The notes under the pieces: generated by a model
The model's input: the letters and a program-made list of their open reading frames with translations, nothing else
Told to the model about the DNA's origin: nothing
Databases searched by the model: none
Part shown: piece after piece, positions 8,952-55,109 of the stretch
Position numbering within the stretch: position 1 is the first letter of the stretch
How the letters are laid out: each line of letters starts with the position of its first letter
Source of the DNA: Lysobacter sp. K5869
GTDB lineage: Bacteria; Pseudomonadota; Gammaproteobacteria; Xanthomonadales; Xanthomonadaceae
Assembly: GCF_018847975.1 (NCBI RefSeq)
Contig: NZ_CP072597.1
Location: 806,001-870,000, forward strand
Direction: 5' to 3'
Length of the DNA stretch: 64,000 bases
Made by a program: the position numbers and the translations under genes

Positions 8952-8974
8952 TCGACCGACGCAACGAATTAATG

Positions 8975-31139: not shown

Positions 31140-33073
31140 CGCATGAAACGGCTCGAAATCACCCGGCGCCGAGCGCGCGGGCCTGAAACAGAAAGGCCGC
31201 CCGATGGGGCGGCCGTGGGCATGGGTAGCGCCGCGGGCGCCGGAGGCGCGGTCGATGTCGGCACGCCCAGCGCGCGCTCCATCTCGCGCCAATGCCGCTC
31301 TTCGAAGCGATCGACGCCGGCCTGCATCGCCGCGGCGCGCGCCATGACGTAGCAATCGAGGGCCTCGTTGCGGTCGCGGCGCTTCTCCCAGACGCGCTGC
31401 GGATAGCCGTGGCGGTCGCGCCGAGTGATCAGGTGTTCGGCGGTCAGCTGCTGCAGGAACTCGCCATCGATCTTCGGCAGGTGGACGTAGCCCGCTGGGA
31501 ACGTCGGCTGACCATCTGGACCGATCTCGATCGACAGGCGCAGCGCGTTGTACAGCTCCAGCTTGGCGATGCCACCGGCCACGGCGAATAGCTTCAGGCC
31601 GCGCCGCAACCGCTTGCCCGGCACGCTGACATCGACCGCGGTCGGGATACCGATCAAGGCGGCGCCGCTACCAACACCCTTCATCGGCAGCAGCCGCGGA
31701 TCGTGCGCGTCGCGCGCGAACGCGTAGGCCTCCTGCGTCGCGTAGCCGGTGTCCAGACCAAGACGTACCAGCGGCAGCAACGCGCCCGAGGCGTGGGTCC
31801 ATTGCTCGCGGAGCAGGCCGGCAAGTTCAGCCCAGACCGCACCGCGGGCGGTGTCGCCTATGAGCACCCGGTGTTCGATCAACCAGGTCTCGCGTTCGCG
31901 GCCGAACGCCCAGACCGAAACCTCGATCCGGTCCTTCTGCACATCGGCGCCGCCGGCCAGCACGAGGCCGCCGGCCGGCACGGTGCCGATCCGGTAGTCC
32001 TCTCGCCGTTCCAGCAGGCGTTCCCAGTCGGGGGCTTCGCCTTCCTCTTCCCAGGTCTCGCCCAACTCGGTGTTCTTGAACGCCTTGAGCGCCGTGGCGG
32101 AGCCCTGCGCCGCTTCCCAGGCAGCGGCGATGTCGGCCCAGCTGCGCCAGCCAACCGGCGAGTACAGCGAAGACAGGTGGTAGCCGGCGGTCTTGCCGCG
32201 GTTCTGCGGCGCCGTCGCAACCCACTGGCCGGCTGCCAGCATCGCGGTCTTGTGGTGCTCGCCGATGGGTTGCTCGCAGGACTCGCAGATGTAGCGGGTC
32301 GAACGCGGGTCGCCCCAGGTCCAGCGCAGTTGCTCGAACCGCAACCATTGCTCGTGGGCGCAGTGCGGACACGGCACGAAGAAGCGGCGCTGATCCGACG
32401 CCAGATACTCGCGCTCGATGGTGCTGGCGCCGGCAATCGTCGGCGTGGAGACCAGCAGGATCTTGCGGCGGGTGAAGGTCCGGGTGCGTGCCTCGGCGAG
32501 AGCGACCGCATCGCCCTCGCCCTCCACGTCGCGCGGATAGCCGTCCACTTCGTCCAGGAACAGGTAGCGCACCGGCATCGACCGCAGGCCGACTGCGCTG
32601 TTGGCGCCCGTCAGAACCAGAACGCCGCCGCGGAACTCCTTGGCGAGGATCGTGTTGCCCGAGTCCCGCGCGCGCGAGGGCGCGATGCGCTCGCGCAGCG
32701 ACGGCGACTCCTCGATCAGCGGATCGACGCGCTGCTTCGAGTTGCGCTTGGCCATCTCGACCGTGGGCGCCACCGCCATCATCGGCCCCGGCGCGCACGC
32801 GATCACGTAGCCGATCCAGTTGTTCCCGCACTCGGTCCCGCCGACCTGCGCGCCCTTCATGAACACAACGCGCTCGGTCGCCGAGGCCGGCGACAGGTCG
32901 TTCATGATGTCTCGCAGGTACGGCGTGCGCGCGGTGCGCCAGCGGCCGGGCTCAGACGACGACGTACTCGACAGCACCCGGTCGCGGTCCGCCCACTCGG
33001 ACACATCCAAGAAGGGATCGGGCGTCAAGCCGTCGCGCCAGGCGCGCGCGACGTCGTCAAAGCCGTCGTACAA
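31136..33073 (-). CDS. Terminase large subunit (lambda gpA family)
   Basis: The 645-residue protein starts MYDGFDDVARAWRDGLTPDPF. ATPase part: adenine/Walker A region near residue 70 (FMKGAQVGGTECGNNW) and Walker B YLFLDEVDGYP at about 170. A zinc-like CPHC...CESC is at about 230-265. The nuclease part is C-terminal (LDTGYATQEAYAFAR). It packages DNA into procapsids and cuts at cos. The C-terminus ends in a basic Arg-rich tail. Confidence 0.96.
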   Translation of the reverse strand: MYDGFDDVARAWRDGLTPDPFLDVSEWADRDRVLSSTSSSEPGRWRTARTPYLRDIMNDLSPASATERVVFMKGAQVGGTECGNNWIGYVIACAPGPMMAVAPTVEMAKRNSKQRVDPLIEESPSLRERIAPSRARDSGNTILAKEFRGGVLVLTGANSAVGLRSMPVRYLFLDEVDGYPRDVEGEGDAVALAEARTRTFTRRKILLVSTPTIAGASTIEREYLASDQRRFFVPCPHCAHEQWLRFEQLRWTWGDPRSTRYICESCEQPIGEHHKTAMLAAGQWVATAPQNRGKTAGYHLSSLYSPVGWRSWADIAAAWEAAQGSATALKAFKNTELGETWEEEGEAPDWERLLERREDYRIGTVPAGGLVLAGGADVQKDRIEVSVWAFGRERETWLIEHRVLIGDTARGAVWAELAGLLREQWTHASGALLPLVRLGLDTGYATQEAYAFARDAHDPRLLPMKGVGSGAALIGIPTAVDVSVPGKRLRRGLKLFAVAGGIAKLELYNALRLSIEIGPDGQPTFPAGYVHLPKIDGEFLQQLTAEHLITRRDRHGYPQRVWEKRRDRNEALDCYVMARAAAMQAGVDRFEERHWREMERALGVPTSTAPPAPAALPMPTAAPSGGLSVSGPRARRRVISSRFMR

Positions 33074-33076
33074 CGA

Positions 33077-33610
33077 TTACTCCAGGCGGGCGACAAAGTC
33101 TCCCAATTCGGACAAGTGCTGCCGTACCTCGCGCTCGAGCGCGACGTGCATGGCATGTGGATCGATGCCCAACTCGGCCGCGAGCATCGAACTGATGCGC
33201 GCCGGCCAGTTCAACCACGCGTCGCGCTCGGCGCGGGCCAAGGCGAAGACCTGGCCGACCGCCTGCTGGCGGTCGATCAGTTCGCCGCGCAGCTGCGCGA
33301 TGCGCAGCTTGTGGTGCTGGGCCTTGAGGACTTCGTTGGCGGTGCGCGCCTGCGCGTAGCTGTTGCCGGCGGGCGCACCGGCCGGGGCCGACAACGTCTC
33401 CTCCTGCGCTACGGCGCGCGGCCGCGCCGGTCGCGGCGCACGCGCGGGCGCGTCCGCCGAAGTCGTGTTGGCCGCCCACTCGGCATCGGCGCGCGCCGGG
33501 TCGATGGTGCCATCCGACAGCGCGGTAATCCGACCGGTGGCGATGGCTTTACGAACGGCGGTGTCCGAGACGCCGCGATGGCGCCCGTAGGCGCGGATGC
33601 TGATTCCCAC
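33077..33610 (-). CDS. Terminase small subunit (Nu1-like)
   Basis: The 177-residue protein has an N-terminal winged-HTH pattern (RAYGRHRGVSDTAVRKAIATGRI) that would bind the packaging site. It has an Ala/Pro linker and a helical C-terminal part (HKLRIAQLRGELIDRQQAVGQVF). It starts at the head of the late operon, 4 nt before the large subunit, as Nu1 does in lambda. The cos site is expected just upstream but cannot be identified by eye. Confidence 0.85.
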   Translation of the reverse strand: MGISIRAYGRHRGVSDTAVRKAIATGRITALSDGTIDPARADAEWAANTTSADAPARAPRPARPRAVAQEETLSAPAGAPAGNSYAQARTANEVLKAQHHKLRIAQLRGELIDRQQAVGQVFALARAERDAWLNWPARISSMLAAELGIDPHAMHVALEREVRQHLSELGDFVARLE

Positions 33611-33674
33611 AGGCGGTCACTGGCAGGTTCGGGCCTCCGCGACCGCCGGCCATCGGCGCAGAACAGGGTGAATT

Positions 33675-33713
33675 GGAAGAGGGAACACCCCAGCCCCCGT
33701 TAGGGGCTGGGGT
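33675..33713 (-). terminator. Repeated cassette terminator, copy 1
   Basis: Stem ACCCCAGCCCC (33687-33697) / GGGGCTGGGGT (33703-33713), followed on the minus strand by GTTCCCTCTTC. It lies 15 nt past the stop of the 175-residue cassette gene. Two close relatives sit at 34384-34421 and 34862-34898, each at the same distance after a cassette gene. Confidence 0.78.
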
Positions 33714-33728
33714 ATGCGCTCTCCGGGG

Positions 33729-34256
33729 TCAGTTACGCGGCGCGCACATGGCCGCGAGGATCGCGTTCTCCAACTGGCGGATCGCCTTGCGCAGACTTGG
33801 AGCGTAGTTCGCATCTGCCACGTCCCACACCAGCATCAAACGGGCCTCGCGAACGGCGCGGTCCAGTTGGTGGACCGGCAGGGCTGCGAACTCCGGCTCC
33901 AGCCCGTCGAAGTACCGCTGCAGGCCGGCGAGCAGCCACCGCATCGTCATCTCGTCCTCGTTGATCTCGCTCGGCACCTCGCGCTTGCCGGACCAGCCCT
34001 TCGCCTGATCGATAGCGCGCTCGACGGGTGCCAGTTCCTCACGGCACTCCACGACCAGCCGCTCAACGAGCGAGGGCGCCAGCGCGCGGGTACGGAAGGT
34101 GACCGTGCAATCGGCAAGGGTGCTGGCGAGACGGTGACAGGCAAACAGCGTCAAACCATCCGCCTCGGGCACCGGCGCGCTGGACAGTAGTATCCGCTCC
34201 ACGGTGTCGCGCAAGCTGCGCAATTCCGTCCGGGCCATCATGAGTTCGTCGTCCAT
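33729..34256 (-). CDS. Hypothetical cassette protein (175 aa)
   Basis: This 175-residue helical, soluble protein has no family I recognise (MDDELMMARTELRSLRDTVERILLSS; later QLDRAVREARLMLVWDVADANYAPSLRKAIRQLENAILAAM). It has its own upstream leader (34257-34367) and downstream terminator, so it is a self-contained transcription unit between the terminase and the rest of the cassette array. It is probably a phage accessory protein of unknown role. Confidence 0.7.
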   Translation of the reverse strand: MDDELMMARTELRSLRDTVERILLSSAPVPEADGLTLFACHRLASTLADCTVTFRTRALAPSLVERLVVECREELAPVERAIDQAKGWSGKREVPSEINEDEMTMRWLLAGLQRYFDGLEPEFAALPVHQLDRAVREARLMLVWDVADANYAPSLRKAIRQLENAILAAMCAPRN

Positions 34257-34367
34257 CGGTTCGTCCTAGTAACGCCGCTTCGATGCGGCGCGACCATGAA
34301 CGCTTCACCGCGCGCGCATCGCAAGCCACTTCAGCGCCTCGTGCGCTCGCAGACAGCAAACGGACAG
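34257..34367 (-). promoter_or_regulatory. Shared cassette leader, copy L0
   Basis: Read on the minus strand: CTGTCCG-TTTG-CTGTCTG (34350-34367), ~44 nt, then GCTT...GAAGC hairpin ending in GAAGCGTTCATG (34295-34306). Next comes a GCCGC/GCGGC hairpin and the gene ATG at 34256. A short leader frame starts at the ATG of GTTCATG and overlaps the gene start out of frame. Confidence 0.75.
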
Positions 34368-34383
34368 GAAGGCTGCTACGCCG

Positions 34384-34421
34384 GAAGAGGGAACACCCCA
34401 GCGCCTCTCGGGCGCTGGGGT
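34384..34421 (-). terminator. Repeated cassette terminator, copy 2
   Basis: Stem ACCCCAGCGCC (34395-34405) / GGCGCTGGGGT (34411-34421), followed on the minus strand by GTTCCCTCTTC. It ends the 100-residue cassette gene and is nearly the same as copies 1 and 3. Confidence 0.8.
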
Positions 34422-34436
34422 CTGACCTCTCCCAGT

Positions 34437-34739
34437 TCAGTCCGCGTCGTGCGGCATCCAGAGCGCGTCCATCAGCGCGCCAGGAGACTCCTGATCATCT
34501 CGCCAAAGCTTGCCCATCAGTTCGTTGGGATCGCCTTGCGTCCCCATCGTCATCCGCGCGCTGTCACAGAGCATCCATACTAGGTCGTAGCAGTGCTGCG
34601 CAATCTCCCGCGCCGCCTGCATCTCTTCTGGGCACAGCGGCGTCGTCGGCTTTCCATCCGCCAAGTCTTTTACTAACTGGTGGCAGTCGCTAAGCATCGC
34701 AGCGGTGTTGCGGAACCTACGCACGGAAACCTTGAGCAT
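34437..34739 (-). CDS. Hypothetical cassette protein, paralogue A
   Basis: The 100-residue protein starts at ATG 34737-34739, with AAGAAGGGAA just upstream (an in-frame ATG at 34754 abuts the leader hairpin). It matches the neighbour at 34915-35178: FRNTAAMLSDCHQLVKDLADG against FHNTLIDLTDCRNTIEEMVTG, then EEMQAAREIAQHCYDLVWMLC against EEARAAENLAEQCFDILTLLC. The pair belongs to the small phage family that begins with a '...F.NT..DL.DC' motif; role unknown. Confidence 0.78.
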   Translation of the reverse strand: MLKVSVRRFRNTAAMLSDCHQLVKDLADGKPTTPLCPEEMQAAREIAQHCYDLVWMLCDSARMTMGTQGDPNELMGKLWRDDQESPGALMDALWMPHDAD

Positions 34740-34853
34740 TTCCCTTCTTCCCATAGTCGCCGCGTCGTTGCGGCGACGACATGAACGCTTCGTCCTGCCA
34801 GAACATCAAGCGCTGAATTGCTCAGTTCAGAGGGTGGACGGCGGCGAGACAGG
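34740..34853 (-). promoter_or_regulatory. Shared cassette leader, copy L1
   Basis: Minus-strand order: CTGTCTC-GCCG-CCGTCCA (34836-34853), then GAAGCGTTCATG (34780-34791), then an 8-bp hairpin CGCCGC-AACGAC-GCGGCG. The 38 bases at 34754-34791 are identical to 35192-35229 in the L2 leader. The second tandem half is degenerate. Confidence 0.78.
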
Positions 34854-34861
34854 AATGTTGA

Positions 34862-34898
34862 AGAGGGAATACCCCAGCGCCCGCCTAGGCGCTGGGGT
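34862..34898 (-). terminator. Repeated cassette terminator, copy 3
   Basis: Stem ACCCCAGCGCC (34871-34881) / GGCGCTGGGGT (34888-34898), followed on the minus strand by ATTCCCTCTTC. It ends the 87-residue cassette gene. Copies 2 and 3 share the stem exactly. Confidence 0.8.
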
Positions 34899-34914
34899 AC
34901 GTCCTCTCCAGATT

Positions 34915-35178
34915 TCAGCGGCGGGGTAGGCTTGCGATTACGCTCCGCATCAGTTCTCGCGCGTCCAGGTGTTGGTCCAGATCGATTCCCGCGTGTTCGC
35001 ACAGCAGCGTCAGGATGTCGAAACATTGCTCGGCCAGATTCTCGGCGGCCCGCGCCTCTTCATGGCTGAGGGAAAATGTCTCGTCCTCATCTCCCGTAAC
35101 CATCTCTTCGATGGTGTTCCTGCAGTCGGTGAGGTCGATCAGCGTGTTGTGGAACTTGCAGTAGGACATATTGGGCAT
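34915..35178 (-). CDS. Hypothetical cassette protein, paralogue B
   Basis: The 87-residue protein starts MPNMSYCKFHNTLIDLTDCRNTIEEM. MSYC(K/R)F.NT..DL.DC is a recurring opening in small proteins of proteobacterial phages. It shares about a third of its residues with paralogue A, so the array grew partly by duplication. The frame is open to the upstream GTTCATG, so a longer N-terminus (starting MSSPQRRGDY) is possible. Confidence 0.8.
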   Translation of the reverse strand: MPNMSYCKFHNTLIDLTDCRNTIEEMVTGDEDETFSLSHEEARAAENLAEQCFDILTLLCEHAGIDLDQHLDARELMRSVIASLPRR

Positions 35179-35290
35179 GTCTGTATTCCGGTAGTCGCCG
35201 CGTCGTTGCGGCGACGACATGAACGCTTCTTTCCGCATGGAAGCCAAGCAGAACGAGCGCTGTTCGCGTTCGCAGACAGAGTTCTGACAG
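35179..35290 (-). promoter_or_regulatory. Shared cassette leader, copy L2
   Basis: Minus strand: CTGTCAG-AACT-CTGTCTG (35273-35290), a GAAC...GTTC dyad, a GCTTC...GAAGC hairpin ending in GAAGCGTTCATG (35218-35229), and the CGCCGC-AACGAC-GCGGCG hairpin. The ATG of GTTCATG is in frame with the gene. Confidence 0.8.
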
Positions 35291-35308
35291 CTTCGGCTGA
35301 GGCCGCGC

Positions 35309-35815
35309 CTACTCCGGCAGTTGTCCGAGCGCTTGCTCCAATCCGCTGACTGCGAAGCTGATGCCGTGCTGGTACTCGGCGTCGCGCGGCCGGAACACGT
35401 ACAAACGCTCGACCAGATCCCGGGCCTGCTCCACCCACTGACGCGGCGTCAGCGTTGGCCGGCACGCGAGATAGGCTTCAATTTGGCCGGCCGCACCGGT
35501 GAACGCGGCGCTGACGACCTCGTTTCTCCGCTTTGCCCGCCGCCCTCTAAAGCCGCCCCGCACACGCCGCTCCCACGCATGCAGTTCTTCGTCCGCAGCG
35601 CGAACCCTGCCGCAAAGCTCAGGTGGTTCAACACGCCGCGCGCGGTCCAACCGCGACCACGGCACCAGAAATCGCGCCAGCGCCTCGCAAGCTTGCGTAG
35701 TGCAGGTGCCGTACTCCCACACCGGCTCCAGATCGGTCGGCGCGTCTTCGACCAACCATCGAATCCGTTTTGGCAGCGTGCCCAGAGTAAATATTGCGTC
35801 CTGTACCTCTTGCAC
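35309..35815 (-). CDS. Hypothetical cassette protein (168 aa)
   Basis: I start this at GTG 35813-35815, since GAGGA lies 8 nt upstream; an ATG at 35848 belongs to the leader box. The protein is helical and Arg-rich (FTLGTLPKRIRWLVEDAPTDLEPVWEYGTCTTQACEALARFLVPW, later TPRQWVEQARDLVERLYVF). No family was recognised. It is the first of the leftward units and is divergent from the DUF6900 unit. Confidence 0.68.
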   Translation of the reverse strand: MQEVQDAIFTLGTLPKRIRWLVEDAPTDLEPVWEYGTCTTQACEALARFLVPWSRLDRARRVEPPELCGRVRAADEELHAWERRVRGGFRGRRAKRRNEVVSAAFTGAAGQIEAYLACRPTLTPRQWVEQARDLVERLYVFRPRDAEYQHGISFAVSGLEQALGQLPE

Positions 35816-35915
35816 TTTGCGTCCTCTTGTCACCGCCTCTTGCGGCACGGCATGAACGCTTCAATTTCGGCAGAAGCCAAGCACCGCCGACATCATTTGG
35901 ACAGGCACCAGACAT
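35816..35915 (-). promoter_or_regulatory. Shared cassette leader, copy L3
   Basis: Minus strand: ATGTCTG-GTGC-CTGTCCA (35898-35915), then GCTTGGCTTC hairpin to GAAGCGTTCATG (35851-35862) and a CCGC/GCGG hairpin. The leader frame is only MPCRKRR before a stop. The tandem-to-box gap is 36 nt, shorter than in L0-L2. Confidence 0.75.
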
Positions 35916-35927
35916 CTTCGCTGTGAG

Positions 35928-36041
35928 CTGTCCGTTAGCTGTCCGGCAGCACCTGGAAGCCGAGCCTTCCGAGAGAAGCGCTTGGCTTCTGCCCAAATGG
36001 AAGCGTTCATGCGTCCACCCAACGCGGCCAAGGAGGCCATC
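35928..36041 (+). promoter_or_regulatory. Shared cassette leader, copy L4
   Basis: CTGTCCG-TTAG-CTGTCCG (35928-35945), a GGAAG...CTTCC dyad, GCTTGGCTTC...GGAAGCGTTCATG (box 36000-36011), a GGCC/GGCC hairpin, AAGGAGG and the gene ATG. The leader ATG is in frame with the gene. The tandem-to-box gap is 55 nt, one helical turn longer than L0-L2. L3 and L4 lie back to back. Confidence 0.82.
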
Positions 36042-36428
36042 ATGAACGACGCACTATTCGCGGAAATCGCCCTGGAACATATCGGGATTACCACGCTGGA
36101 AAGTCGTAAGCGCGACGATCTGGACTTCTACAGCGTCGCGGTCTGGGAAGTTCGCGACGTCATGCGGTCCGCGTATCTGGCCGGATACGCCGCCGCGCTA
36201 CGCGCAGCGCAGGGAGCCGGACCAGCATTGCCCACAGAGCGCCACACCTTGACGGGCGAAGCATGGCTGGGCGCGGGCGAAGCGAGCGACTACGGCGACG
36301 ATCCGAACGCCTACACGGTAACCACGCTACCTATTCCCGAGGTGGAGCTGCTGAGTTACCGATGGCAGGAGCGACGCGCTTGCGATGTGCTGATCCCACG
36401 CGCCATCCAGCAACGCCGCATCGACTAA
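36042..36428 (+). CDS. DUF6900-type phage protein
   Basis: The 128-residue protein starts MNDALFAEIALEHIGITTLESRKRDDLDFYSVAVWEVRDVMRSAYLAGYAA. This is the DUF6900 pattern, (L/F)xxIAxExxGIxTLExRxxDxLDFxxVAVWxxxxAxxxAYxAG. The function of the family is unknown. AAGGAGG lies 6 nt upstream of the ATG. A strong terminator follows. Confidence 0.8.
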   Translation: MNDALFAEIALEHIGITTLESRKRDDLDFYSVAVWEVRDVMRSAYLAGYAAALRAAQGAGPALPTERHTLTGEAWLGAGEASDYGDDPNAYTVTTLPIPEVELLSYRWQERRACDVLIPRAIQQRRID

Positions 36429-36446
36429 GGCGCATCGCCGCTAAAG

Positions 36447-36470
36447 CCCCCGCCCGCGCGGGGGTTTTTT
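36447..36470 (+). terminator. Terminator of the DUF6900 unit
   Basis: CCCCCGC (36447-36453), CCGC loop, GCGGGGG (36458-36464), then TTTTTT. It lies 18 nt after the stop and ends the first rightward unit, 17 nt before the next tandem repeat. Confidence 0.9.
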
Positions 36471-36486
36471 GTTCCGCGCCAAGAAG

Positions 36487-36605
36487 CTGTCCGACACCTG
36501 TCCGTGAATGAGAACGGTCGTTCTTCATCGTAGAAACCGCTTGGCTTCCTTGGCGAAGGAAGCGTTCATGCGTCCACACCAACGCGGCCACGGAGGCCAA
36601 ACGCA
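36487..36605 (+). promoter_or_regulatory. Shared cassette leader, copy L5
   Basis: CTGTCCG-ACAC-CTGTCCG (36487-36504), GAAC-GGTC-GTTC dyad, perfect hairpin GCTTCCTT-GGCG-AAGGAAGC ending in GAAGCGTTCATG (36559-36570). The leader frame MRPHQRGHGGQTQ stops inside the gene start (AATGA), the clearest case of stop-start coupling in the set. Confidence 0.85.
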
Positions 36606-36830
36606 ATGACCACCAAAGACGAACTGAACGACATCTTGCGCGGCATGCCTGCGCATGAGCGCGCCATCTTGGCAGCACTGGATGGGCGCACCCCCTGGGA
36701 GCTTGCATGCGCCGAACAGAAGCGGCGCGCGGCCATGACGCTCCACAGGTTCAGCAGCGAAATGATCAACGAAATCGTCAGCGGGCGAATCGACTTGCCC
36801 AAGGCCGCGCGCGATGCCGGCGGCGAGTAA
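36606..36830 (+). CDS. Hypothetical cassette protein (74 aa)
   Basis: This 74-residue soluble helical protein (MTTKDELNDILRGMPAHERAILAALDGRTPWELACAEQKRRA) has no recognised family. GGAGG lies 12 nt upstream of the ATG. Its 3' end overlaps the next gene by 17 nt. Confidence 0.72.
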   Translation: MTTKDELNDILRGMPAHERAILAALDGRTPWELACAEQKRRAAMTLHRFSSEMINEIVSGRIDLPKAARDAGGE

Positions 36831-37053
36831 GGGGCACACCCGCCCGGTAGATGCCGAGCGTCCCAACCCCGAAGACCTCTGGTTCTTGAAGGCAACGGCG
36901 GCGACGGTTCTCGTCGCCGCCGCCAACGGAACCCTCGACCTCAACCAACTGGCGCGCGACGAACTGATCCGTCGCGGGCTGGACCCCAGCGGCGAATGGG
37001 TTGGTCCCCGCCGCGCTCAAGAACTGCACCACTCCACCCAACAAGGAGCTTGA
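36814..37053 (+). CDS. Small phage protein (79 aa), unknown role
   Basis: The 79-residue protein overlaps the previous gene and is separated from the DUF3489 gene by 2 nt, so it belongs to a three-gene unit. The segment NGTLDLNQLARDELIRRGLDPSGEWVG is a recurring motif in phage proteins (..LDLN.LAR.EL..RGLD..G.WVG). Function unknown. Confidence 0.72.
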   Translation: MPAASKGHTRPVDAERPNPEDLWFLKATAATVLVAAANGTLDLNQLARDELIRRGLDPSGEWVGPRRAQELHHSTQQGA

Positions 37054-37055
37054 CC

Positions 37056-37652
37056 ATGACCACCATCGAACTCTCCGGCAACCAGCGCACCGTCCTCGAA
37101 ATGGCCCGCGATACCGGCGGCTACATCGAGCACTACCCCACCGGCTTGCTGGGCGGCGCCCGCACCAGCGTCGTGCGCGCTCTGCTGCGCAACGAACTGG
37201 TCGAAGCCCACGATGCCGGCTACCGGATCACGACGGCCGGCTACGCGGCCATCGGCGTCGAGCCCCCGATGGATGCCGACACCACCGGAACAGAGGCGCC
37301 CGCCACGCAGAACCTCAGCGAACCGAGCGCTCCCGGCCTCCCGGAGGAGACCGCGAGCAGCGCACCGGTCGCGCCGAGCAAGCGCGAGCGCGCCGCGCGC
37401 GGCGACACCAAGCTGACCACGGTCGTCGGCCTGCTGATGCGCCCCGAAGGCGCCACCATCGCGCAGATCATGGCCGCGACGGATTGGCAGCAACACTCGG
37501 TACGCGGGTTCCTTGCCGGCACCGTCAAGAAGAAGGGTTACACGCTGACCAACAGCAAGGAAGGCGACGGTGAGCGGGTGTATCGCATTGCGACCGAGGA
37601 GGCGCTGGGCGCACCCGCCGACGTCACCGCGCACGGCGACGAGGAAGAGTAA
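37056..37652 (+). CDS. DUF3489-domain phage protein
   Basis: The 198-residue protein starts at ATG 37056 behind AAGGAG. Residues 1-65 look like a winged-helix (NQRTVLEMARDTGGYIEHY, YRITTAGYAAIG). A linker follows, then the DUF3489 block at ~130-190 (TKLTTVVGLLMRPEGATIAQIMAATDWQQHSVRGFLAGTVKKK). Such proteins are thought to bind DNA; the role is unknown. It ends the three-gene unit and is followed by a 13-bp hairpin at 37660-37687. Confidence 0.83.
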   Translation: MTTIELSGNQRTVLEMARDTGGYIEHYPTGLLGGARTSVVRALLRNELVEAHDAGYRITTAGYAAIGVEPPMDADTTGTEAPATQNLSEPSAPGLPEETASSAPVAPSKRERAARGDTKLTTVVGLLMRPEGATIAQIMAATDWQQHSVRGFLAGTVKKKGYTLTNSKEGDGERVYRIATEEALGAPADVTAHGDEEE

Positions 37653-37659
37653 GGACCGC

Positions 37660-37687
37660 AGCGAGCCGGACAAGTGTCCGGCTCGCT
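37660..37687 (+). terminator. Hairpin after the DUF3489 gene
   Basis: AGCGAGCCGGACA (37660-37672), AG, TGTCCGGCTCGCT (37675-37687): a perfect 13-bp stem 7 nt after the stop, with no T-tract. It could terminate the unit. It also overlaps the first tandem half of the next leader, so transcription stop and regulator binding may be linked here. Confidence 0.6.
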
Positions 37688-37792
37688 GTCTAGTAGCAGT
37701 CTCACAACTAAGATCATCGAGAATGCTGCGCGCATCGCTTGATGTTCTTTCGAATTGAAGCGTTCATGTCCTCCCAACCACGGAGTACCACG
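37674..37792 (+). promoter_or_regulatory. Shared cassette leader, copy L6
   Basis: GTGTCCG then GCTGTCT in the same orientation (spacing 12 rather than 11 bp), ~65 nt, a CGCTTG...GAAGCG hairpin ending in GAAGCGTTCATG (37757-37768), GGAG and the gene ATG. The leader ATG is in frame with the gene. The tandem is the weakest part of this copy. Confidence 0.7.
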
Positions 37793-38077
37793 ATGATTAA
37801 CGTTACCCCGCAGACCGGACCGGATGAACTGCTCGCAGTGCTTGACGCTCGCATCCTCGATGCGGTCGAAGATACGTTGTCTAACGACGAGGACTCGACG
37901 GACGCGGAAGTGGGTCAGTACCTGATGGACCTCGGACTGAGCGAGATGCAAGCCAAGCGCGCGCTGTGTTACCGCACGCTGTACAGCCTCAACCTTTGGG
38001 TCGGCGATTGCACACCGATTCGGTCCAGCACCCGCTTACGCTACGACGGCGAGAGCGGTCAGTTTGTAATCGCCTGA
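37793..38077 (+). CDS. Hypothetical cassette protein (94 aa)
   Basis: The 94-residue acidic protein (MINVTPQTGPDELLAVLDARILDAVEDTL, then LSEMQAKRALCYRTLYSLNLWVGDCTPIRSSTRLRYDG) has no recognised family. GGAG lies 11 nt upstream of the start. It is a single-gene unit between L6 and L7. Confidence 0.7.
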   Translation: MINVTPQTGPDELLAVLDARILDAVEDTLSNDEDSTDAEVGQYLMDLGLSEMQAKRALCYRTLYSLNLWVGDCTPIRSSTRLRYDGESGQFVIA

Positions 38078-38111
38078 TTACCTCGCTGCCGCGCCTTGCG
38101 CGGCGGCCTTC

Positions 38112-38209
38112 CTGTCCGACCGCTTAGCGCGTGAGGACGCACCGCGCTAACACCCTTGGATTCCGCCCCGAAGGAAGCGCTCATGGGCCTCCTAACACAA
38201 GAGGCCACC
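38112..38209 (+). promoter_or_regulatory. Shared cassette leader, copy L7
   Basis: CTGTCCG (38112-38118) with a degenerate second half, then TTCC...GGAA hairpin, GAAGCGCTCATG (38174-38185), and a GGCCTC...GAGGCC hairpin directly before ACC-ATG. The leader ATG is in frame with the gene. It has one base change in the box (GCTCATG for GTTCATG). Confidence 0.68.
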
Positions 38210-38533
38210 ATGACCAGCCGAATCCTTCCGCCCTACCAGCTGCAGATACGATTCAGCCATAACCCTCGCAACGCCAGAGCGATGATGCGTGAGTTGAGCG
38301 CCTACTACATCGAACCCGAGTTGGCGTGGGTCATCGAGCAAAAGACGATGACGCAGACCGAGTACCGGGGCTTTGAGCGCGACTTTACCCAGCCCCAGTA
38401 TTGGATTACGCCGCTCAACAGCCGACCGACCCACTGCATCATGGTCGTGGCGCCTCGTATGCCGACGCTCTACGTCAGGGCCGAAGGCGCCAACTACGCG
38501 CGCCTCGTTGGGCTCGCTGTCGAGGAAGGCTGA
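38210..38533 (+). CDS. Hypothetical cassette protein (107 aa)
   Basis: The 107-residue protein (MTSRILPPYQLQIRFSHNPRNARAMMRELSAYYIEPELAWVIEQKT, later RFYVRAEGANYARLVGLAVEEG-like end) has no recognised family. AGAGG lies 6 nt upstream of the ATG. It is the last of the rightward cassettes and converges on the dcm-type gene 31 nt away. Confidence 0.68.
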   Translation: MTSRILPPYQLQIRFSHNPRNARAMMRELSAYYIEPELAWVIEQKTMTQTEYRGFERDFTQPQYWITPLNSRPTHCIMVVAPRMPTLYVRAEGANYARLVGLAVEEG

Positions 38534-38564
38534 GCGCCGCCCCGGCGCCGCGCGCTGCGCGGCG

Positions 38565-39476
38565 TCAGGGCCGCAACGCTCTCAGAATCTCGGCGGCAAC
38601 TTGCGGGACGATCGCATTGCCGGCGGCGCGCAGGCGAGGTATTCGGGCGGGTATCCCATGAGCCAGAAGACGAATTCCGGGTTGAGGAATCCGCCGACCG
38701 GCGAGGGTTCGACCTGTCGCCCAAGCATCCCATTGACCGGCGCGCTGCCAACGCTCGACGCATCCTTGTGATCCCGCGTCGTCGGCGTCGCCCAAACCGC
38801 CTGCGCCGGCAGCGGGCGGGTCGCCCCGCTGCCGAAGCTCTGGTTCGGCCCGCCCTTTTCCCCGTCGCTCGCGCGCGGCGTGCTCCACACCGCTTTCGCC
38901 ACTCCCGGAAGGCCATTGCGCCGCTCGGCCGCAAAGTCCCCGCGTTTCTCCGCATCGTTCGCCGTCGCGGTCGGCCAGACGGCGCCCCACGATCCAGACG
39001 CGGTCGCGGCGATGCGGGGCGTTGACGGCGCAAGCTGGAACAACAACCGCCCGGCTGGCGTAGCCTTCGCCTTCCAGGTCAGCGAGAACTCCGTCGAGCC
39101 CCAGCGGGATGAGGCCAGCAACGTTCTCGCCCAGGAATACAGCGGGTCGCGCTTGTGCAATAAGGCGATGCAACTCCGGCCAGAGGTGGCGGTCGTCGGC
39201 ATGCGCGCGCTGGTTGCCGGCGACGCTGAACGGCTGGCAGGGGAATCCGCCGGTCCACAGCGGCGCGTCGCCCGGCCAGCCCGCGAGCCGGGCGGCGTAG
39301 GCGAATCCGCCGACGCCGGCGAAGAAGTGGCATTGGGCGTAGCTGCGGAGATCGGCTGCGGAAACAGATCGAATGTCGCGGTCATCGACGTCGCCGGCCG
39401 GAATTAACCCGGCCGCCATCAGGTTCTTGAGCCATTGGCACAGGTACGGGTCGATCTCGTTGTAGTAGACCGCCAT
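38565..39476 (-). CDS. DNA (cytosine-5) methyltransferase, phage-borne
   Basis: This 303-residue protein starts at ATG 39474-39476, overlapping the previous stop. C5-methyltransferase motifs: I HFFAGVGGFAYAARLAGW (50-67), IV GGFPCQPFS with catalytic Cys80, VI GENVAGL, VIII RRDRVWIVGRR, X RAAGNAIVPQVAAEIL. The variable target-recognition region is short and Gly/Arg-rich. The N-terminal extension before motif I (~48 residues) is unusual. It would methylate phage or host DNA against restriction. A second open frame (38582-39385) is a shadow. Confidence 0.9.
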   Translation of the reverse strand: MAVYYNEIDPYLCQWLKNLMAAGLIPAGDVDDRDIRSVSAADLRSYAQCHFFAGVGGFAYAARLAGWPGDAPLWTGGFPCQPFSVAGNQRAHADDRHLWPELHRLIAQARPAVFLGENVAGLIPLGLDGVLADLEGEGYASRAVVVPACAVNAPHRRDRVWIVGRRLADRDGERCGETRGLCGRAAQWPSGSGESGVEHAARERRGKGRAEPELRQRGDPPAAGAGGLGDADDAGSQGCVERWQRAGQWDAWATGRTLAGRRIPQPGIRLLAHGIPARIPRLRAAGNAIVPQVAAEILRALRP

Positions 39477-40996: not shown

Positions 40997-41794
40997 ATGG
41001 ATGCAGAACAGTCATTGAAAGATCTGGAAAACTCGCTTCGGGATTTCGCTGAGTTCATATTGCGCCGAAAATACGGCCACTCCTGGATTAGCAGTCTCAA
41101 GATTTCACCTGAAAGACTGAGGAGCTGGCAGGAGCGAAAGTCAGTTGAGGCAAAGAGATTGCCCGGTGAAGCACTTGAAGACCGGCTCCTCTACTATGCC
41201 GACTTCTATGACTTAAGGACCATAGTCACGAAGCACTGGGAGGATGGATTCTCCGAAGCGTTTCCTGAGAAGAGATGGGTCGAGGTACTACTAGCGGAAA
41301 TGGAGAGGCTCCGGGACCCGAGCGCGCATAGCCGTGAACTAACGGACTACCAGAAGCATCTCGTCTGTGGGATTTCCGGCCTGATCAGAACAAGAATTAT
41401 GAAGTTCCGTGGAGCCAGAGACGACATGCACAGCTTCTTCCCGGTCATTGAACACGTCACTGACAGCCTCGGCAATCAAATGGCAAATCCGGCGTATGCC
41501 ACCATGATTGTCGCTAAGGATCCCGTGCGAGTCGGGGATACCGTAGAGATCAGAGTGAGCTCCATCGATCCACAAGGAGAGCCACTTCTCTATAAATTCC
41601 GCCGCGTGAATGTACCACTGCTTGGCGACTGGGTAGATTCGAACTCTATGACGATTACTTTCGCGGAATCCGACATTGGCAAAGCGTGCGACATCAATGT
41701 GATGGTCAAGACGCGTCGCAGCTATCACGCATACGGTGAGTTTGATGACTACGTGGCAATAAGGTACGTGGTCCTTCCAGCAACATCCTCTTGA
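40997..41794 (+). CDS. HEPN-domain protein (Swt1-like) with Ig-like C-terminus
   Basis: The 265-residue protein is transcribed against all its neighbours and is clearly AT-richer. The helical N-terminal half ends in LRDPSAHSRELTDYQ, with R106 and H111 in an R-x4-H motif as in HEPN ribonucleases and Swt1_HEPN proteins. The C-terminal ~95 residues are beta-rich (VRVGDTVEIRVSSIDPQGEPLLYKFRRV), Ig-like. HEPN proteins of this kind act as toxins or in phage exclusion. The location between methyltransferase and replication genes fits a lysogenic-conversion gene. The toxin role is inferred; no antitoxin is adjacent. Confidence 0.68.
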   Translation: MDAEQSLKDLENSLRDFAEFILRRKYGHSWISSLKISPERLRSWQERKSVEAKRLPGEALEDRLLYYADFYDLRTIVTKHWEDGFSEAFPEKRWVEVLLAEMERLRDPSAHSRELTDYQKHLVCGISGLIRTRIMKFRGARDDMHSFFPVIEHVTDSLGNQMANPAYATMIVAKDPVRVGDTVEIRVSSIDPQGEPLLYKFRRVNVPLLGDWVDSNSMTITFAESDIGKACDINVMVKTRRSYHAYGEFDDYVAIRYVVLPATSS

Positions 41795-41955: not shown

Positions 41956-42396
41956 TTACCCGCGTTTAGCCGTGCCTGCCGAAAACATGTTCTCCGTTGC
42001 AGGCGAAACGATGCGCGGGAGCGCACCGTTGAGATGGACGGTGACCAGGTTGAGCGCATGTTGCCACCGACGCCATGCGGTCTTTCTGATCAGGCCGGTA
42101 CGCGAACAGACCTCGCGCCACGGAACGTACTGCGCGCGCAACCAGATCAGCCGGCGCTGTTCTTCGTCTAGCCACTGCAGCCAGCGCACGGTTTCGCCAA
42201 AGCGATCGATCGCACCGGGCGACGCCGCAAAGCGCAACACGACCCGTTCGTCCGCATAGCCCTCCCAGGCTTGGCGGTTGATGTCCGGCCAGAACGCGGC
42301 ATAGCCCTGTACCCGAGCCGGCGGCAGTCGGCGCGCGGTAACAGCCGCCTCGTGGAAACGGTCCGTCACACGCTCAACAGTCCAGGGCTCGCTCAT
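41956..42396 (-). CDS. DUF6362-like phage protein
   Basis: The 146-residue protein starts at ATG 42394-42396 (MSEPWTVERVTDRFHEAAVTARRLPP). The pattern WPDINRQAWEGYADERVVLRFAASPGAIDRFGETVRWLQWLDEEQRRLIWLRA is that of the DUF6362 family. A late HTH-like segment (LDEEQRRLIWLRAQYVPWREVCSRTGLIRKTAWRRW) suggests DNA binding, similar to sigma-70-type late regulators (phage antitermination/late activator). That makes it a candidate activator for late or cassette promoters; this is inference. It overlaps the RuvC-like gene by 4 nt. Confidence 0.72.
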   Translation of the reverse strand: MSEPWTVERVTDRFHEAAVTARRLPPARVQGYAAFWPDINRQAWEGYADERVVLRFAASPGAIDRFGETVRWLQWLDEEQRRLIWLRAQYVPWREVCSRTGLIRKTAWRRWQHALNLVTVHLNGALPRIVSPATENMFSAGTAKRG

Positions 42397-42854
42397 GCTT
42401 CCGGTCCTTGTGCCAACGCCCAGTGCAGCAGCGCGAGCGCATCGGCCTCGTTGTCGTCGGCCGGTGCGTGGCCGCGCCGCTCCATCGCGGCGATCATGGC
42501 AACCTTCTTGGCGTTTCCCTTGCCCGTGGCGTGTCGCTTGATCGTGGTGACCGGAACGCCTTGGTACGGAATCCTGTGCTGCTCGCACCAGGCCGTCAAC
42601 TGACCCAGAAAGCCGCCGTAAGCATGTGCGGCGTCCACGCCCAAGTGCCGCCGTACCTCCTCGAAGTAGACGACCTCGATCTTGCCGACAAAGCCATGCG
42701 CTTCGTCCAACCACCGCCCGAAACGCAGATACCGCATGCCACCGCCCTCGAAGCGGCTTGGTCGGAACGTCTGGATGCCGCTGGTGATCTGACCAGGGCG
42801 GGCCAACGCCCAGCCCATCGTCGTGCCAAGGTCGAGTGCCAGAATCGTGCTCAT
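42393..42854 (-). CDS. RuvC-like Holliday junction resolvase
   Basis: The 153-residue protein starts at ATG 42852-42854 with MSTILALDLGTTMGWALA, the RuvC/RNase-H opening with the first acidic residue Asp8. VYFEEV supplies Glu69, and DDNEADALAL supplies the acidic C-terminal pair. It would resolve recombination or replication branches before packaging. It is between the primase and the DUF6362 gene, overlapping neighbours by 4 nt. Confidence 0.83.
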   Translation of the reverse strand: MSTILALDLGTTMGWALARPGQITSGIQTFRPSRFEGGGMRYLRFGRWLDEAHGFVGKIEVVYFEEVRRHLGVDAAHAYGGFLGQLTAWCEQHRIPYQGVPVTTIKRHATGKGNAKKVAMIAAMERRGHAPADDNEADALALLHWALAQGPEA

Positions 42855-52662: not shown

Positions 52663-52856
52663 GCGCACCAGCTCCGCTTTCCTCGGCTCCTTCTGCTGAA
52701 GCGCGGCGAGTCGAGATCGCTCGCCTTCTCGCGCTCGCGATCACGCGCTGCCGGCGCGACGAGAAACCCGCTGGCTGGACGCAGAAGGGGGTTGCTAACC
52801 CGCGCGTGGGAAGCGTCCATGTCCGTCCCTTCAAACCGGGTCCAACCCCACGATGA
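52659..52856 (+). CDS. Small protein of the recombinase operon (65 aa)
   Basis: A 65-residue Arg/Ala-rich protein (MSAPAPLSSAPSAEARRVEIARLLALAITRCRRDEKPAGWTQKG) with ATGA overlaps on both sides. The slot between HTH and DUF2924 is often filled by a short unknown protein in such modules. No function assigned. Confidence 0.65.
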   Translation: MSAPAPLSSAPSAEARRVEIARLLALAITRCRRDEKPAGWTQKGVANPRVGSVHVRPFKPGPTPR

Positions 52857-53335
52857 AAAAAGACATGCCTGCAATGCCCGCGGCAACAGTCGCACGCGTC
52901 GTCGCACTTCGTAATATGACTATGCGCGAGCTGAAGGCGCAATGGTCAGAACTGTTCGAGAACGCGCCACCGGTCGACCAGCGTCGCTTCCTGGAGCGGC
53001 GCATCGCGTATCGACTTCAAGAGCTCGCCTGGTCGAAGCATCATGCGGCTGAGCTCGATGCAAACCGCGCACGGATCGACCTGCTGGTGGACAAGGGCAA
53101 GCTCCCTCCGCGCGTGCGCAATGGAAAGCCGATGCCCGGCTCGGTGCTGATCCGGCATTTCGGCGGACAGGACCATGTCGTAACGGTGAGGGCCGACGGC
53201 GATTTCGACTATCGCGGCCAGAGCTTCTCTAGCCTCTCGGCGCTCGCCAAGCACATCACCGGCACACCGTGGTCTGGACCGGTGTTCTTCGGCCTGCGCA
53301 GCGCCAGTGCCAAGACGAATGGAGGCCCGCGATGA
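52853..53335 (+). CDS. DUF2924 protein of the integration module
   Basis: The 160-residue protein shows the DUF2924 pattern: MTMRELKAQWSELFENAPP, RRFLERRIAYRLQELAW and PGSVLIRHFGGQDHVVTVRADGDFDYRGQSFSSLSALAKHITGTPWSGPVFFGL. The family almost always precedes a large serine recombinase in phages and islands; its function is unknown. It overlaps the recombinase start (ATGA). Confidence 0.88.
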   Translation: MKKDMPAMPAATVARVVALRNMTMRELKAQWSELFENAPPVDQRRFLERRIAYRLQELAWSKHHAAELDANRARIDLLVDKGKLPPRVRNGKPMPGSVLIRHFGGQDHVVTVRADGDFDYRGQSFSSLSALAKHITGTPWSGPVFFGLRSASAKTNGGPR

Positions 53336-54681
53336 GCGCCCCTGACATTTCGCGCCGTCTGCGTTGCGCCGTGTACGCGCGAAAATCAACGGAGGAGGGG
53401 CTGGAACGCGAGTACAACAGCATCGAAGCCCAGCGCGACGCCGGCCAAGCCTTTATCGCCAGCCGCCGCGCCGAGGGGTGGATTCCTGTCGCAGACGACT
53501 ACGACGACCCAGGTTACTCGGCGGCTACGCTGGTGCGCCCTGCGTTGGAGCGCCTGCTGGACGACATCCGCGCCGGCAAAATCGACATCGTCGTCACCTA
53601 CAAGGTTGATCGACTTTCCCGAAGCCTACGAGACTTTCATCGACTGTGGGAGCACATGACTGCATACGGGGTCGAGTTCGTCGCTGTGACCCAGCAGTTC
53701 AACACGACCGATGCGATGGGACGGTTGATGCTCAACATCCTTCTCTCGTTCGCCGAGTTCGACCGCGAACTGGACGTCGAGCGCGCTCGGGACAAGATGA
53801 TCGCAAGCAAGAAGAAGGGGTTGTGGATGCACGGCGTTCCGCCGCTCGGCTACGACCTCCAGAACCGCCGGCTCGTGGTCGACCCGAAGGAGGCGCCGCT
53901 GGTGCGCTGGATCTTTCAGCAGGTCGCGGCGGGCATGCCAACGGCGCCGCTCGTTGCCGCGCTGCGCGCACGCGGCGCGACCTCCAAGGTCTGGACTACC
54001 CGGAACGGACGCCAGATCCTCGGCAAGCCTATCGATAAGTCCCTGGTCTACAAAATGCTCGGCAACCGCACTTACCTTGGGGAGCTTCGCCACGGCGCGC
54101 AGTGGTTCACCGAATCGCACGAAGCCATAATCGAGCCGGAACTTTGGGCCGAGGCGCAGGCGGCTATCTCTACCCGGCCGCGCGCCCTGCCGTCGTCGGA
54201 CAGTTCGAAGATTCCCTTCCCCTTGCGCGGGCTGGTCTTCGCGGCGGATGGCCGCGCCATGACGCCGTGGCATACCACCAAGCGCAATGGTCGAACCTAC
54301 CGATATTACGTCCACACCCGCGCGCTGCACGAAAGCGCCAAGCTACTAAAGCTTCCGCGCGTCCCCGCCGGAGAATTGGAGGCTGCCATCATCGAGCAGC
54401 TGCGCAGCGTGCTTCGGGCCCCGGAGTTGATTTCGGCGATTTTGGCGCAGGCAGCTGCACTTGACCCCGACCTGGACGAGCCGCAGATCATGATCGCCAT
54501 GCTACGCCTGCATGAGATCTGGGAGTACCTCGCCGGGCACGAGCAAGAACAGATGCTCCAACTGCTGATTGAGCGAATCGTCGTCCACGAAGATCGCGCC
54601 GAGTTGCGGCTGCGCCCACTGGGCCTGACCAGCTTTGTCCGCGAACTGGAGCAACACGAAGCCGTCGAGGTATCCGCATGA
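53332..54681 (+). CDS. Large serine recombinase (probable phage integrase)
   Basis: The 449-residue protein starts at ATG 53332, overlapping the DUF2924 stop; the frame is open further up. N-terminal resolvase domain: YARKS with nucleophile Ser19, SLEREYNSIEAQ-like block, DDIRAGKIDIVVTYKVDRLSRSLRDF. A recombinase domain then zinc-ribbon-like region (LPLRGLVFAADGRAMTPWHTTK, although Cys residues are lacking) and a coiled-coil C-terminus. It is one of the larger serine recombinases and should integrate the phage. It lacks a canonical CxxC ribbon. Confidence 0.9.
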   Translation: MSAPDISRRLRCAVYARKSTEEGLEREYNSIEAQRDAGQAFIASRRAEGWIPVADDYDDPGYSAATLVRPALERLLDDIRAGKIDIVVTYKVDRLSRSLRDFHRLWEHMTAYGVEFVAVTQQFNTTDAMGRLMLNILLSFAEFDRELDVERARDKMIASKKKGLWMHGVPPLGYDLQNRRLVVDPKEAPLVRWIFQQVAAGMPTAPLVAALRARGATSKVWTTRNGRQILGKPIDKSLVYKMLGNRTYLGELRHGAQWFTESHEAIIEPELWAEAQAAISTRPRALPSSDSSKIPFPLRGLVFAADGRAMTPWHTTKRNGRTYRYYVHTRALHESAKLLKLPRVPAGELEAAIIEQLRSVLRAPELISAILAQAAALDPDLDEPQIMIAMLRLHEIWEYLAGHEQEQMLQLLIERIVVHEDRAELRLRPLGLTSFVRELEQHEAVEVSA

Positions 54682-55109
54682 GCAAATTCAAGGTCGAGAT
54701 AGCCACAGGCAGCGATGGCTCTATCAGCTTTGATGTTCCGCTGCGGATCACAAAGCGCGGCTACCGCAAGCTCGTCCAGCTCACCGGGCCGGAGGCCGCC
54801 GAGCGGCCTTGGGACGCCCGGCCGACCGCGCTGCAGCGTGCGCTGGGCCGTGCGGAGCGCTGGCGCCGGATGCTGGAATCCGGCGAGGCCATGTCCATCA
54901 ACGATCTGGCTGCGAAGGAGAGAACGGACTTCAGCTACGTCGCTCGCCTGCTCAATCTAACGACATTGGCGCCGCAGCTGGTAGCAGCGATCTTGGACGA
55001 CACCCTTCCCAGTGGCACGACCGTCAATGACCTGGCGATCAACCCGCCTCTGCTATGGTCCGGGCAGATCGAGCAACTGCAGCGCAAGCGCGGTCCGTTA
55101 CGCAGGTAG
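54678..55109 (+). CDS. HTH protein downstream of the recombinase
   Basis: The 143-residue protein overlaps the recombinase stop by ATGA. N-terminal beta part (FKVEIATGSDGSISFDVPLRI), Arg-rich middle, and a KorB/ParB-like HTH: SINDLAAKERTDFSYVARLLNLTTLAPQLVAAIL. It often travels with DUF2924-recombinase pairs. It may regulate or assist recombination; the role is unproven. Confidence 0.75.
   Translation: MSKFKVEIATGSDGSISFDVPLRITKRGYRKLVQLTGPEAAERPWDARPTALQRALGRAERWRRMLESGEAMSINDLAAKERTDFSYVARLLNLTTLAPQLVAAILDDTLPSGTTVNDLAINPPLLWSGQIEQLQRKRGPLRR

Follow-up and report, generated by a model that had tools for sequence, protein, structure and literature searches.

What do eight small gene units of a temperate phage gain from starting behind nearly the same stretch of DNA, and which protein reads it? 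This question is raised by a prophage of Lysobacter sp. K5869, analysed here in a 64,000-nucleotide stretch of its genome (contig NZ_CP072597.1, positions 806,001 to 870,000; hereafter the window, with coordinates counted from its first letter), in which eight accessory units, four on each strand, carry similar leaders between 34257 and 38209. An initial annotation had described these leaders as an 11-bp tandem repeat followed by a GCTT/AAGC hairpin with a terminal box and by a second hairpin, and had proposed a single regulator for all of them. Judged from sequence, the shared leader is very probably a phage-specific bipartite DNA promoter class, and, given that class, the DUF6362 protein encoded in the phage replication operon is likely to be its factor; the two statements taken jointly are what we favour, with some reserve.

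The box GAAGCGTTCATG was found in the window in seven exact copies and one copy with a single mismatch (GAAGCGCTCATG), located at 34306, 34791, 35229 and 35862 on the minus strand and at 36000, 36559, 37757 and 38174 on the plus strand. When up to two mismatches were allowed, 16 matches were obtained across the whole window against 6.6 expected, and none of 100 shuffles reached 16. In all eight leaders, CTTG was shown to precede the box by exactly 15 nt, so that what had been described as a hairpin proved to be a bipartite element of fixed spacing, hereafter the core. Cores 1 to 4 (CTTG-N15-GAAGCGTTCATG) lie on the minus strand at 34295..34325, 34780..34810, 35218..35248 and 35851..35881, and cores 5 to 8 on the plus strand at 35981..36011, 36540..36570, 37738..37768 and 38155..38185, the last with the box GAAGCGCTCATG. 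With a position matrix trained on a site set that included them, these eight cores scored 22-47 bits; elsewhere in the window the same matrix gave 5.8 for a ninth copy before the integrase operon, 1.6 for the next position, and -0.9 for the best reversed/complemented control. The initial proposal of one common phage-specific regulatory leader for all eight units is supported, and the fixed spacing and the ninth copy are additions to it. Three other exact boxes in the host genome lack CTTG at the fixed distance and were taken as chance occurrences. A consensus search for sigma70 promoters and terminators returned no promoter (0.6 expected) and one terminator-like site (3.1 expected).

The element was shown to occur well beyond this prophage. 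The pattern CTTGNNNTN11GAAGCGTTCATG matched 63 stretches across 53 virus contigs, often in 2-6 copies, as well as 84 stretches in a set of bacterial genomes with one genome per species; about 30 of the latter matches would be due to chance as estimated from its 17 specified bases. Within the 1.19 Mb of overlapping loci fetched with such a pattern, a weight matrix yielded 304 matches above 14 bits versus one in the reversed/complemented control. Named loci exceeding 30 bits with a broad matrix came from Lysobacter, Hahella, Nitrosomonas and other Nitrosomonadales, Dechloromonas, Propionivibrio, Sterolibacterium, Ferriphaselus, Nitrotoga, Marinobacterium, Marinobacter and some metagenome-assembled genomes, while three Pseudomonas loci at 22 bits, a value near the score guaranteed by the search pattern, may be chance and were not counted. 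Its conservation thus extends to independent phages and is more than duplication, so that the refuting condition set in the initial annotation does not apply. Searching for similar phages by DNA gave short matches only, with Epa5 holding neither a core nor DUF6362. No description of this promoter was found in a search of the open-licence literature, and, as far as open-licence papers go, the phage promoter type is apparently both widespread and undescribed.

To what extent does the leader act as RNA? A set of 469 unique sites, or 247 non-redundant cores, was collected with a pattern fixing CTTG, T at -12, GCGTT and one of four endings; conservation at these positions is by construction, and conservation at the other positions is not. 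A leader of two hairpins acting as a riboregulator, with the ribosome-binding site masked or exposed by the second one, would account for the GCTT..AAGC letters in the window leaders, for a second hairpin GCCGC-N-GCGGC present in 33 of the 247 sites, and for a mean second-hairpin folding z of -0.68 (against -0.19), some signal being seen in the GAAGCG group only. It fares badly at the first hairpin: its five outer pairs all form in 58 of 247 sites, the partner at -20 of the fixed C at +4 is G in 168, A in 56, C in 17 and T in 6, and the partner at +2 of the fixed T at -18 is A in 139 and C in 108. Compensation is invisible at pattern-fixed positions; in a freer matrix scan, +4 was changed in five of the 30 listed variants and a Watson-Crick pair was restored in none of them (three wobbles, two mismatches). 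Folding z-scores of hairpin 1, computed with simple shuffles, were -0.24 (130 sites) and -0.07 (114 sites), equal to the upstream control (-0.13 and -0.10), and the inner TTC/GAA dyad covaried little or not at all (153 observed against 140 expected under independence in one case, 129 against 113 in another, the rest being equal). Rfam gave no match at E<=1 in 33001-39000, and tRNA only overall. In addition, the one-turn distance classes of the tandem described below would be meaningless in RNA. Pair counting and folding z-scores led us to reject an RNA leader, which we consider exceedingly doubtful; the GCTT/AAGC letters are thus real, but neither a conserved structure nor a functional role of the hairpins could be upheld.

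The rest of the leader is consistent with a DNA promoter. A CTTG-N3-TTC block is followed at fixed spacing by a GCGTTCAT block, and the 247 sites are A/T-rich at -25..-23 and A-rich at -37..-35. T content declines from 20.9% at -60..-26 to 11.2% at +13..+42, the leader being T-poor right after the box. A strict ribosome-binding site with ATG was found downstream in 189 of 247 sites (3 in the reversed, 7 in the upstream and 12 in the shuffled control), 180 of these ATGs lying 20-45 nt past the box, and a laxer ribosome-binding-site pattern was found in 222, at a median of 34 nt (controls 21, 54 and 41). In the matrix scan, some variants leave no start codon in the box (GAAGCGTTCATA/C/T, GTTACT, GTTAAT), and others disrupt the hairpin (AGCGCG, AGAGCG). 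TATAAT showed no enrichment elsewhere around the 247 sites, in favour of the promoter reading. The GTTCAT block makes a poor -10, and this counts against promoter function. The 17 nt from TTGNNN to GTTCAT resemble sigma70 spacing, as would be expected of an ordinary host-sigma promoter type that phages carry with no factor of their own. That reading is very improbable: all seven pattern matches in the 5.97-Mb genome fall inside the prophage, and the sequence is unchanged across the high-scoring named loci, which come from Lysobacter, Hahella, Nitrosomonas, Dechloromonas, Ferriphaselus and other gamma- and betaproteobacteria. The core was also considered as a reading frame (LGFxxEQRVH in gp29, gp30 and gp5 of AcaML1) and rejected on account of TGA in that frame in several cores, for example at window 35862 and 37757. 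The deposited AcaML1 ORFs gp5, gp29 and gp30 (2985-3176, 20407-20787 and 20791-21153 of locus L149) cross promoter cores, and parts of those annotated proteins are therefore probably untranslated.

The ninth core, a diverged copy (GTTG-N15-GAAGCGTCCATG; 52791..52821, plus strand), precedes the integrase operon, in which a DUF2924 protein (52853..53335; PF11149, 2.7e-39), a large serine recombinase as integrase (53269..54681; PF00239, 4.3e-36; phrog_95 integrase, 3.5e-98) and a small recombinase-associated protein (54678..55109; phrog_14161 'recombinase') are encoded on the plus strand. Scans of whole records gave sites in 27 of 28 records and no control match, some of the sites being far from the accessory cluster. 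Of ten distal sites fetched, seven stand before a DUF2924-like gene with a large serine recombinase, and one falls in a mosaic region. The remaining two, in L373 and L378, stand before a conserved protein of 96 aa (M..RxKxAxIDDVTSRN). DUF2924 is encoded in 25 of the 28 records, with a core-like element upstream in 25 of 25, recognised in eight by position in the whole-record scan and in 17 by scoring of the fetched upstream regions. These 17 and that of the window all exceed the best reversed control (-6.6), the weakest scoring -5.8. It tells against the linkage that 11 of these 17, and so of the 25 integrase copies, score under 10 bits (-5.8 to 9.1) and belong to phages related to one another; moreover, nearly all records were chosen for having cores, so that the linkage is not an independent sample.

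Which protein, then, accompanies the core? In the window, the candidate trans-acting factor is a DUF6362 protein of 146 aa encoded in the replication operon (41956..42396, minus strand); the longest ORF there (41956-42867, minus strand) over-extends this gene and, in its N-terminal half, runs across the RuvC-like gene in a different frame. DUF6362 was found in 23 of 25 motif-bearing virus records, chosen from the 53 contigs mostly among the longer ones, and in the window's genome, the two misses being records of 23 kb and 31 kb. Relatives are scarce among phage records (tblastn: 12 of 50,697, none above 37% identity), and at least 570 virus stretches encode one. For the converse test, 80 DUF6362 loci were fetched by the protein alone, eight already known were dropped, and cores were called above 12 bits. 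A core was detected in 26 of 26 loci with at least 7 kb downstream, and in 5 of 6 (5-7 kb), 5 of 6 (4-5 kb), 0 of 6 (3-4 kb), 2 of 8 (2-3 kb) and 0 of 20 (less) with shorter flanks. All 82 core matches lay on the strand opposite DUF6362, 2.0-6.6 kb downstream, and no match above 12 bits occurred in 971 kb of control. The 26 loci represent 22, 13 and 8 lineages at <90, <80 and <70% DUF6362 identity; a strict pattern, used in place of the matrix, recovered 25 of the 26, and a looser pattern likewise 25, its reversed control giving 3.

Host genomes and terminase loci agreed with this co-occurrence. Among 299 genomes of the order, ten passed the DUF6362 cut-off and 41 more had weak matches below it; the exact GAAGCG subtype was present in 2 of these 10 versus 0 of the 289 others, and a broader pattern in 10 of 10 (3-11 matches each) versus 0 of 4 relatives lacking DUF6362. 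A core was found near DUF6362 in nine of 12 stretches taken around that gene in host genomes, the other three ending within about 4.1 kb downstream. Both core and DUF6362 were found in 25 of 29 terminase loci with enough upstream sequence; L358 has DUF6362 with a variant core, two have a core only, DUF6362 lying beyond the flank but present in their records (G002 and G009), and L360 lacks DUF6362 and has variant cores. In loci with both genes, which overlap, 167 of 167 DUF6362 ORFs share their strand with the RuvC-like gene and are no more than 1.2 kb from it. When the RuvC-like gene was controlled for, motif distance still correlated with that of DUF6362 (0.45, p 0.001, in 63 loci; -0.08, p 0.8, with the roles exchanged), and likewise when the AAA protein was (0.57 in 29 loci; 0.15, p 0.05, with the roles exchanged). 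These neighbours could thus be set aside, and the co-occurrence with the core supports DUF6362, which the initial annotation had listed among the proteins to be tested for DNA binding, as a candidate regulator.

Several observations weigh against this assignment. The terminase small subunit, whose gene adjoins the sites, could not be set aside in the same manner, since its partial correlation (0.41, p 0.002) equals that of DUF6362 (0.39) in 38 loci, perhaps through linkage. In the genome comparison, the reversed control pattern matched nine times across the 14 genomes, so single genome matches may be chance. AcaML1, with four cores, and G324, the record of L360, with two, lack DUF6362 in the whole record, and RcSwan encodes a DUF6362-like protein (36% identical) with no core before its accessory genes, its sole match above 12 bits (14.8) falling inside a coding gene. 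Near the RuvC-like gene, the usual place of DUF6362, AcaML1 and L360 have instead a gp20-type protein, directly after that gene in L360 and past the small gene gp19 in AcaML1; L121 has a gp20-type ORF and a core, with no RuvC-like ORF in its 8 kb. Both proteins together were found in none of three gp20 loci and 186 DUF6362 loci. We read the gp20-type protein as a replacement regulator in the slot of DUF6362; alternatively, DUF6362 could be no regulator at all. Such a replacement may rescue the slot, not the universality of DUF6362. Remote kinship between gp20 and DUF6362 was considered and dropped, there being no profile similarity (hhalign probability 0.1).

The equal correlation with the terminase small subunit, together with the position of the clusters next to its gene, also speaks for another possibility, namely that the sites are no promoters and bind a different phage protein, such as that subunit for packaging or the recombinase. 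We regard this as improbable, given that there are also sites in front of the integrase operon, some 14-18 kb off, that a ribosome-binding site and start codon follow far more often than in controls, and that the T-poor leader begins at the box.

What DUF6362 might do at a promoter can be judged from its relatives and its predicted structure. A sigma-region-4-like helix-turn-helix (HTH) was recognised in DUF6362, Sigma70_r4_2 being matched by 19 of 49 members at E<=1; matches to RinA (3 of 49, best 0.022) and DUF1492 (2 of 49, 0.027) were weak. No region-2 model appears among the Pfam matches shown for the members, and residues 36-54 of the predicted structure have pLDDT <50. The best fold match of that structure was the antiterminator Q21; the Q21-type family, PF06530, does not appear in the 25 listed of the 26 families that the 49 members match at E<=1. 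A PDB sequence search with the DUF6362 profile gave nothing below E 0.15, and among open-licence papers none using the name DUF6362 was found. In an unlikely alternative, the core is a loading site at the promoter for DUF6362 as a Q21-like antiterminator, which would join paused RNA polymerase so that terminators at unit ends are read through, initiation being left to host sigma. No pause element was identified, a difference from phage 21 Q. Our own extension of the promoter reading is tentative: DUF6362 may be a Q21-fold protein repurposed as a promoter-specificity factor, a sigma substitute consisting of region 4 only, which would provide a CII-like lysogeny switch for integrase and accessory cassettes when replication starts.

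The 11-bp tandem is probably an addition to the core. CTGTCYG-N4-CTGTCYG is clear in five window leaders (three exact), degenerate in those of the boxes at 34791 and 37757, and halved at 38174. On the minus strand the tandems lie at 34350..34367 (CTGTCCG-N4-CTGTCTG), 34835..34852 (degenerate, CTGTCTC-N4-CCGTCCA), 35273..35290 (CTGTCAG-N4-CTGTCTG) and 35898..35915 (ATGTCTG-N4-CTGTCCA), ending 44, 44, 44 and 36 nt before the box; on the plus strand at 35928..35945 and 36487..36504 (both CTGTCCG-N4-CTGTCCG, exact), 37686..37703 (degenerate, CTGTCTA-N4-CAGTCTC) and 38112..38129 (half, second half lost), ending 55, 55, 54 and 45 nt before it. The 11-bp spacing described earlier was confirmed and extends to the 37757 leader, where 12 had been claimed, with one mismatch in the second half; the loss of the second half at 38174 also stands, and the second half at 34791 is weak. 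Taken alone, in a loose window search (up to three mismatches), the tandem was not enriched (21 versus 16.7 +/- 4.7), and it is its position relative to the box that makes it credible. Among 57 tandem-bearing unique sites, the tandem ends 17 nt (2), 25-26 nt (22) or 35-37 nt (33) before CTTG, and among 23 sites less than 60% identical over -80..-20 the counts are 1, 11 and 11; the associated Rayleigh p of about 3e-9 is optimistic, as sites were treated as independent. Because Rayleigh R was about 0.9 at every period tried from 9.5 to 11.5, what is established is two narrow distance classes 10-11 nt apart and no measured period. A slightly different set of 66 tandem sites gave the same classes. 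This agrees with the earlier notion of a same-face tandem, its repeats one helical turn apart and in face with the core; the 17-nt sites fit less well, and the one window leader with its tandem at 36 nt, 8 nt off the next class, goes against it.

The tandem cannot be the common denominator, as had first been assumed, since 25 of 130 sites of the GAAGCG subtype bear it, against 4 in the reversed control, and none of 114 of the AGMGCG subtype, the CTTG/GCGTTCAT core being the general part; the six named loci that bear it are all Lysobacter. Its limitation to one subtype and to two main distances suggests that the tandem is probably an added activator site. Exact tandems number three in the window's genome and one in a relative, all in prophage, and none in two other relatives; a host regulator was accordingly rejected, and the protein that binds the tandem is probably phage-encoded. 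Nor is the layout without parallel, as had been supposed, the PhoP box being described as a direct repeat of hexamers spaced by 5 nt (PMC3335776). Two further elements were observed around the core. One is a near-palindrome AGAACGNTCGTTCT with the look of a repressor operator, between tandem and core in some leaders (window 36509-36524; also leaders in L001, L018, L025 and L062). The other is GAAGCCAAG, the half-site CTTGGCTTC in inverted form; it was counted near -37 at 13 of the 247 sites and 0 times in the control, for example in the DUF6362 loci L186, L200 and L252, and was set aside.

The window's accessory genes are mostly without a named family, the Pfam matches being DUF6900 and DUF3489. 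Cores 1 to 4 are followed on the minus strand by 33729..34256 and 34437..34754 (no family found for either), 34915..35178 (phrog_8760) and 35309..35848, an ORF whose real start is probably a GTG further in. On the plus strand, cores 5 to 8 are followed by 36042..36428 (DUF6900), three ORFs at 36606..37652 of which the last is DUF3489, 37793..38077 (no family found) and 38210..38533 (weak phrog_21303). The DUF3489 gene (37401-37535) has a DNA match of 75.6% to AcaML1 gp32 (L149, 21337-21933), and a DUF3489-like protein, recognised by eye, is encoded in the L360 accessory cluster (8231-9082); it is perhaps a second regulator common to the group. The four minus-strand cores are oriented toward the late genes, from which a hairpin separates them. 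Three near-identical GC-rich hairpins (CCCCAGCSCC..GGSGCTGGGG, GAGAGG arms; 33688-33712, 34396-34420 and 34872-34897) close minus-strand units, the first sitting just before the terminase small gene; they are terminator-like with a weak T tract. Between methyltransferases and DUF6362, on the strand opposite the latter, a HEPN_Swt1-domain protein (3.7e-8; 40997-41794, plus strand) is a possible defence gene.

In the mechanism that we propose, CTTG-N3-TTC would serve as a -35-like block and GCGTTCAT, at its fixed spacing, as the -10-side block, with transcription starting just past the box and the start codon following about 34 nt after it. DUF6362, as a product of the replication operon, would recognise the core, most likely at the CTTG block, and recruit host RNA polymerase, so that once the early replication genes are on, the integrase operon and the accessory units would be transcribed together. 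In Lysobacter-type phages, the 11-bp tandem, itself phased with the core, would be bound by a second and probably phage-encoded protein that assists much like a class I activator. On the more tentative reading of DUF6362 as a sigma substitute, a large, mostly uncultivated group of temperate phages would possess a private promoter class, and any gene landing behind a core would join the regulon. Accessory genes of temperate phages, usually found singly, would become predictable as a regulon through their common promoter, for which the core offers a sequence signature: in Lysobacter, Hahella and betaproteobacterial prophages it points to accessory and integrase genes. Furthermore, a candidate function open to testing is provided for DUF6362, and the linkage of core and integrase bears on the phage's decision to integrate. 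Should the regulator be a Q21-like protein acting at initiation, antiterminators and sigma factors would be linked.

Several known systems share parts of this arrangement. The T4 MotA box is a TTGCTT-like upstream box served by a phage factor together with host RNA polymerase; it may resemble the CTTG block, and the -10 block differs. In lambda, CII is a replication-side activator that turns on the integrase promoter from direct repeats straddling the -35. A replication-side candidate regulator, a putative integrase promoter and direct repeats are likewise present here, while the -10 is not sigma70-like and, unlike with CII, no core was noticed at a repressor gene, such genes not having been searched systematically. 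Ltr/RinA of Gram-positive phages control packaging and lysis, probably a difference from the integrase and accessory cores: all 82 core matches lie on the strand opposite DUF6362, although the four minus-strand cores of the window face the late genes. DUF6362 has only weak RinA and DUF1492 matches. Phage 21 Q (21Q) is encoded after the replication genes. In its modelled structure, DUF6362 resembles 21Q in fold along most of its length (VIA-align), and both have a sigma-region-4-like HTH. They differ in that no sequence-family match connects them and that the 21Q site serves a late promoter, as against many integrase and accessory promoters here; this site, the QBE, is embedded in the promoter DNA (PMC6606751). 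The Caulobacter gene transfer agent (GTA) depends on other proteins and sites, on two factors and on IHF, and is a GTA and not an integrase system, GafZ having one target. Its activator GafY is reported to serve about 18 dispersed accessory-gene promoters, and GafZ to be a sigma-like HTH protein with a proposed site between -35 and -10 (PMC11150451), so that dispersed accessory-gene promoters and a sigma-like HTH protein come together there as in the DUF6362/core system.

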